A stretch of 64,000 bases of DNA from Kiloniella laminariae (GTDB taxonomy: Bacteria > Pseudomonadota > Alphaproteobacteria > Kiloniellales > Kiloniellaceae). This document shows positions 43,727 to 43,839 of this stretch, piece by piece. Location: assembly GCF_027214005.1 (NCBI RefSeq), contig NZ_JAPWGY010000004.1, positions 186,001 to 250,000 of the forward strand. Direction: 5' to 3'. The notes under the pieces were generated by a model, which saw only the letters and a program-made list of their open reading frames with translations, did not search any database and was not told the DNA's origin. Within the stretch, counting starts at the first letter, position 1, and each line of letters starts with the position of its first letter. A program made the translations under genes and the position numbers.

Positions 43727-43839
43727 GACTCCCCTTGACTCGAGTCCCCTATCCTGAGTCACGATGGAGTCGCGGTCAAGTATTTTTTACAGGAAGAGTC
43801 AAGTAAAGAGTCATAAGAGTCAGTTGCTTAGCTCGAGTC
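43727..43839 (-). promoter_or_regulatory. Cluster of nine GANTC sites in the ccrM upstream region
   Basis: GACTC or GAGTC begins at 43727, 43737, 43742, 43756, 43767, 43796, 43808, 43817 and 43835, nine sites in 113 bp where random DNA would give less than one. Seven lie wholly in the ccrM-rnhB gap, one spans the rnhB stop and one is in its last codons. Sites 6-8 are set in the repeated context AAGAGTCA. In Caulobacter, GANTC sites in the ccrM leader make transcription sensitive to methylation; this is the likely role here, in an enlarged form. Confidence 0.8.

Follow-up and report, generated by a model that had tools for sequence, protein, structure and literature searches.

The gene for the GANTC methyltransferase CcrM in Kiloniella laminariae is preceded by a cluster of GANTC sites that is real rather than a product of chance, and that represents the densest form of an arrangement widespread upstream of ccrM in Alphaproteobacteria. 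Two sites of this cluster fall within a putative core promoter, one in the spacer and the other fused to the -10 hexamer, and the layout suggests that ccrM reads the methylation made by its own product. We propose that ccrM is transcribed from a sigma-70 promoter into which the targets of its own enzyme are built, such that methylation would lower promoter activity and passage of the replication fork would release it; we put the probability of this reading at about one half.

A site listing of the window (the whole 64-kb stretch of DNA analysed here) places GANTC at positions 43727, 43737, 43742, 43756, 43767, 43796, 43808, 43817 and 43835, in agreement with the nine sites in 113 bp reported in a first-pass annotation of this DNA. 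Two finer details given there are also borne out: three copies of AAGAGTCA are found at spacings of 12 and 9, and one GANTC overlaps the ccrM ribosome-binding site. The description of the cluster as lying precisely between rnhB and ccrM is slightly too strong, since only seven of the nine sites are wholly within the 100-bp gap separating these two minus-strand genes, with one (43817-43821) overlapping the rnhB stop codon and another inside rnhB (Table 1). The window overall is poor in GANTC, with 158 sites against a shuffle mean of 282. For a wider background we combined the window with 20 stretches of 20 kb from the same genome (464 kb, about 11% of the genome); GANTC density there is 1.97 per kb, the next densest 113-bp stretches have four sites at most, and the Poisson expectation for a cluster like that upstream of ccrM is about 7e-7 per genome. 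All nine cluster sites are GACTC or GAGTC, whereas GATTC and GAATC make up two thirds of the GANTC sites in the window.

The identity of the downstream gene is supported by Pfam N6_N4_Mtase and RAMA domains in its protein, by a match of residues 5-354 to the solved CcrM structure 6pbd (E 7e-161), and by NCBIfam, in which CcrM is the best model, yet with a score below the model cut-off (631 of 830 bits). Given this relationship to CcrM, the encoded enzyme is predicted to methylate GANTC.

Table 1. Features of the ccrM upstream region, in window coordinates.
Feature	Position	Strand	Basis or remark
ccrM, GANTC adenine methyltransferase, GTG start	42649..43719	-	Pfam, structure match, NCBIfam
GANTC over ccrM ribosome-binding site	43727..43731		sequence and site listing
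Shine-Dalgarno AAGGGGAG	43729..43736	-	9 nt before ccrM GTG start
Two abutting GANTC, palindrome GACTCGAGTC	43737..43746		spans predicted transcription start
-10 element CAGGAT	43751..43756	-	17-bp spacer; first base common to a GANTC site
GANTC core site 2, fused to -10	43756..43760		about -16 to -12; 11 bp from site 1
GANTC core site 1, in spacer	43767..43771		about -27 to -23
-35 element TTGACC	43774..43779	-	TTGAC at same place in aligned promoters
A-tract just upstream of -35, UP-element-like	43783..43788	-	sequence; A-rich there in 90 aligned promoters
Three upstream GANTC (43796, 43808, 43817)	43796..43821		within TGACTCTT direct repeats
rnhB, ribonuclease HII, upstream neighbour	43820..44512	-	Pfam RNase_HII E 2e-46
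Ninth GANTC, inside rnhB end	43835..43839		site listing and gene coordinates

A simple consensus scan of positions 42500-44700 found no promoter. The core promoter, TTGACC and CAGGAT with a 17-bp spacer, was found by aligning ccrM upstream regions, which share TTGAC, followed by GANTC and TGANTCA, and a T that is conserved four bases further along. Core sites 1 and 2 of Kiloniella both lie inside this conserved layout, and the last C of core site 2 is the first base of the -10 hexamer. The usual first base of a -10 element is T, and CAGGAT is far from the consensus; here the hexamer begins with C, as though priority were given to the methylation site. In the 118 sequences selected by TTGACN3GANTC alone, position 2 of the hexamer is A in 97% and position 6 is T in 99%, and the G, A, T and C of the second GANTC each reach 84 to 92%. 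Read from the other direction, TTGACN-N17-CANNNT has 166 matches in the ccrM upstream regions, and 139 of them have the fused GANTC. Transcription would start at about 43743-43746 as judged from the -10 element, a position that the GACTCGAGTC palindrome would straddle, and the A-tract may function in the manner of an UP element. A fixed 11-bp spacing of the two core sites was considered as a universal rule and rejected: pairs spaced by 9, 10 and 11 bp all exceed expectation (16, 14 and 15 of the 84 class-wide sequences described below, against about 6.5 expected), with those at 12 and 13 bp not above it, and the steady element across the alignment is the fused -10 site rather than the pair spacing. 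The idea of a methylation-responsive switch, put forward in the first-pass annotation on the strength of the number of sites, gains support from promoter placement, with the key feature being the positions of two sites, in the spacer and in the -10 hexamer, and not how many sites there are.

We examined the spread of the arrangement in 210 distinct upstream sequences, comprising 78 from the nearest named loci (of 80; L029 and L070 were dropped for too little upstream DNA), 48 from further loci (of 50; two rows identical to others were dropped) and 84 class-wide sequences. The class-wide source was the 243 of 289 genomes with some match, not all of them to ccrM; the 84 derive from the 30 best matches, which gave 24 new distinct sequences, and 60 chosen mostly as one per family. 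In this non-random and phylogenetically uneven sample, from which weak matches were left out, at least one GANTC occurs within 200 bp upstream of ccrM in 203 of the 210 sequences, most often three, with none in the other seven. A few of the distances to rnhB (e.g. 760 in L087) probably reflect an alignment that starts before the true rnhB start, and our conclusions do not depend on them. The count in related genomes and the comparison with a shuffled background, both proposed in the first-pass annotation, come out in favour of the cluster: GANTC density upstream of ccrM is 17.4 per kb, as compared to 4.6 in shuffles and 1.2 in the DNA flanking the nearest named loci, and the 15 other palindromes of the same form reach at most 2.5-fold over flanks upstream of ccrM. 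The density in Kiloniella, which had been called unusual, is indeed the highest in the 464 kb of its own genome, but it is the top of a widespread range rather than a lone oddity.

The fused layout is similarly widespread. Defined strictly as TTGA, N13-15, and a GANTC fused to a -10 of the form CANNNT, it is present in 141 of the 210 sequences (59/78, 43/48 and 39/84 in the three sets), as against a mean of 0.13 per 210 and a maximum of one in 30 shuffles, and we found none in 465 kb of flanks of the nearest named loci, searched on both strands. A second GANTC lies between the fused site and the -35 element in 57, 38 and 34 sequences of the sets of 78, 48 and 84, respectively. The strict layout is missing from 69 of the 210 sequences, including 45 of the 84 in the class-wide set. 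In 464 kb of the Kiloniella genome there are three other matches to the strict single-site pattern, all away from ccrM; hence, the pattern alone is no proof of a methylation-controlled promoter. Between lineages, the N of core site 1 varies among A, G, C and T, and that of core site 2 is mostly C or A, while the fixed letters G, A, T and C hold at both sites. Such freedom at N, with GA and TC kept, fits selection for a methylation target and not for the recognition word of one protein.

Within the genus, the arrangement is fixed. The closest named record is that of K. majae, with a CcrM 89% identical, and eight further genomes belong to Kiloniella; each of the nine sites keeps its position in all nine Kiloniella genomes examined and in the K. 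majae record, so relatives without the cluster, which the first-pass annotation named as a refuting outcome, are not seen within the genus. Over 119 positions in these ten rows (G000 to G008 plus K. majae, which matches G007 base for base in this stretch and may be the same genome), variation affects 0 of 44 positions inside sites and 22 of 75 outside them (Fisher p 1.3e-5), and the N of GANTC is invariant at the sites. Family relatives outside the genus have 3 to 6 sites within 200 bp (13 of 14 genomes, all but G012, whose ccrM match is at a contig end). Nine sites in 113 bp are seen only in Kiloniella among the sequences compared, followed by eight in L205; 6 to 8 GANTC per 113 bp upstream of ccrM also occur in L176, L178, L212, L198, L165 and L049, as well as L205. 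A profile search of the nine Kiloniella genomes, in which 150 of 824-1329 candidates per genome were scored (of 321 in the partial genome G005), recovered the promoter at ccrM in every genome (E at most 8.4e-7); elsewhere it gave no more than four matches, all weak and partial (E 0.8 to 5.9). Since this search, with its limited scoring, found the promoter only at ccrM, the promoter looks like a dedicated device.

That the promoter is active, that its sites are methylated and that methylation lowers its activity are predictions from the sequence. Under the proposed mechanism, core sites bearing m6A on both strands would weaken promoter recognition or opening; fork passage would leave the core sites hemimethylated, raising ccrM transcription; and new CcrM would re-methylate the core sites, closing the promoter. 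The outcome would be a fork-timed pulse together with homeostasis of methylation capacity, and the extra Kiloniella sites may sharpen or delay the closing step. The proposal bears on how CcrM is confined to part of the cell cycle outside the model species. A -10 element made partly of the enzyme's own target would be a simple form of feedback, in which the gene would sense hemimethylation directly, and the layout is a defined two-site element at which m6A could act on sigma-70 polymerase itself or through GcrA. In its broadest form, our proposal is that in much of Alphaproteobacteria methylation is sensed by the ccrM core promoter itself, where sigma-70 polymerase would read it directly without GcrA or CtrA, and that this promoter forms a fork-timed homeostat equipped with nine sites in Kiloniella; we advance this broad form tentatively, and consider it somewhat more apt to fail than to hold.

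As to the sign of the methylation effect, the promoter is most likely weaker when fully methylated. We favour a negative sign on indirect grounds: a methylase gene that depended on its own methylation could lock itself off, and the Agrobacterium gcrA result and the Caulobacter ccrM reports point the same way. The Agrobacterium tumefaciens gcrA promoter has six GANTC in 250 bp and is described as less active when methylated, also in Escherichia coli making CcrM (PMC11514494); it is the nearest precedent for a dense cluster, likewise before a cell-cycle regulator, but it belongs to a different gene, so there is no feedback of a methylase on its own promoter. The Caulobacter crescentus ccrM promoter, the original work on which (Stephens, 1995) is reported second-hand (PMC2217572; PMC10073500; PMC3973325), resembles that of Kiloniella in having promoter GANTC and in a reported link between hemimethylation and transcription: by one account, only hemimethylated DNA supports ccrM transcription (PMC2217572). 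It differs in having two GANTC sites (PMC10073500) and activation by CtrA, whereas Kiloniella has nine sites and no CtrA box better than two mismatches. Two reports count against a negative sign. In Caulobacter, a GANTC between the -35 and -10 elements is said to go with activation at 40-60 min (PMC4287350), and the ftsZ and mipZ promoters, with a conserved CGACTC identical to the site at 43767, are activated by its methylation (PMC3708114); these two are not methylase genes, and no twin layout is described for them in the accessible text of that paper.

The main rival explanation makes GcrA the reader: GcrA with sigma-70 would bind methylated spacer sites and be needed for transcription, so that CcrM would feed forward on its own gene. 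Kiloniella does encode GcrA (C11:404752-405405; Pfam 101 bits against a cut-off of 26.9; NCBIfam GcrA model 89 of 280 bits, below cut-off), and a -10 element as far from consensus as CAGGAT is what would be expected of an activated promoter. Moreover, a GANTC does lie between the -35 and -10 elements, as joint action of GcrA and sigma-70 would have it, at the position tied to activation in Caulobacter (PMC4287350), and the word at 43767 is the one critical in ftsZ and mipZ (PMC3708114). By contrast, an extended GcrA motif given as YGAKTCK and YGAKTCG (PMC7987155) fits, by eye, only the site at 43835 in rnhB and neither core site. Genomes without a Pfam GcrA match account for 19 of the 84 class-wide sequences, and in these genomes a second model, made from four GcrA proteins, gave one weak match (G111, E 9.7e-4). 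The fused layout is kept in 12 of these 19 genomes (not in G111) as compared to 27 of the 65 others, which include G058 with only a weak GcrA match, and GANTC site numbers show no difference with and without detected GcrA (p 0.52); a divergent GcrA may escape the models. Retention in 12 of 19 argues against strict GcrA dependence: the layout is, as far as these models detect GcrA, independent of it, and GcrA absence does not bring loss of the layout. We regard GcrA-dependent activation of ccrM as rather unlikely.

Two other possibilities do without methylation as the primary signal. CcrM itself, as a bound protein, could repress the gene or act as a roadblock at its packed targets, with methylation secondary. 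The sites do reach past the predicted start and over the ribosome-binding site, where bound enzyme could block, and self-repression through promoter binding is described for some restriction-modification methylases (PMC3874152); those methylases, however, are reported to use an N-terminal helix-turn-helix (PMC3874152), while Pfam finds only methylase-type and RAMA domains here, and the fixed relation of GANTC to the -10 element points to polymerase rather than occupancy, making this possibility improbable. It is highly improbable that the GANTC words are sites of an unrelated regulator, with methylation playing no part. The nine Kiloniella sites are all GASTC, N is unchanged in the genus and three sites share TGACTCTT, which speaks for such a regulator; on the other hand, either core site can carry different bases at N in different lineages, and GANTC is the only one of 16 palindromes to show strong enrichment, right at the gene for a GANTC methylase. 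CtrA was also considered as the main control and rejected, with boxes of at most one mismatch in only 21 of the 210 sequences. The best match to TTAA-N7-TTAA before Kiloniella ccrM has two mismatches (three in one sister species), no better than is common in shuffles, and CtrA boxes are somewhat rarer in sequences with the fused -10 (10/141 vs 11/69, p 0.053).

Placing a methylation site at a -10 element has a precedent in the Tn10/IS10 transposase promoter, in which a Dam site lies at the -10 and methylation controls transcription. Transcription of the CfrBI and LlaDII methylase genes is described as controlled through methylation of the target of the encoded enzyme (cited in PMC3874152). The latter are restriction-modification systems and the former is a transposon, neither being a cell-cycle methylase. 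A 2010 study compared GANTC counts in cell-cycle gene promoters throughout the class and concluded that control could not be derived from such counts (PMC2877005). GANTC in the Caulobacter ccrM promoter, and its probable sensitivity to methylation, are already in print, by second-hand accounts. In the accessible parts of the open-access literature we found no description of the fused -10 layout, of how widely it occurs or of a ccrM promoter with nine sites; the geometry could be in print elsewhere.

Two further observations concern gcrA. In several families, f103, f104, f123 and f135 among them, the sampled genomes have CcrM and no Pfam GcrA match, a possible loss of GcrA with CcrM kept. Separately, an overlapping doublet, GACTCGACTC, is found about 110 bp before gcrA in the Kiloniella genome (L233:9640-9649, on C11). 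In L159, from another family of the order, the same doublet precedes gcrA by about 100 bp, whereas L160 and L162 lack it; the doublet may be a second GANTC-based control element.
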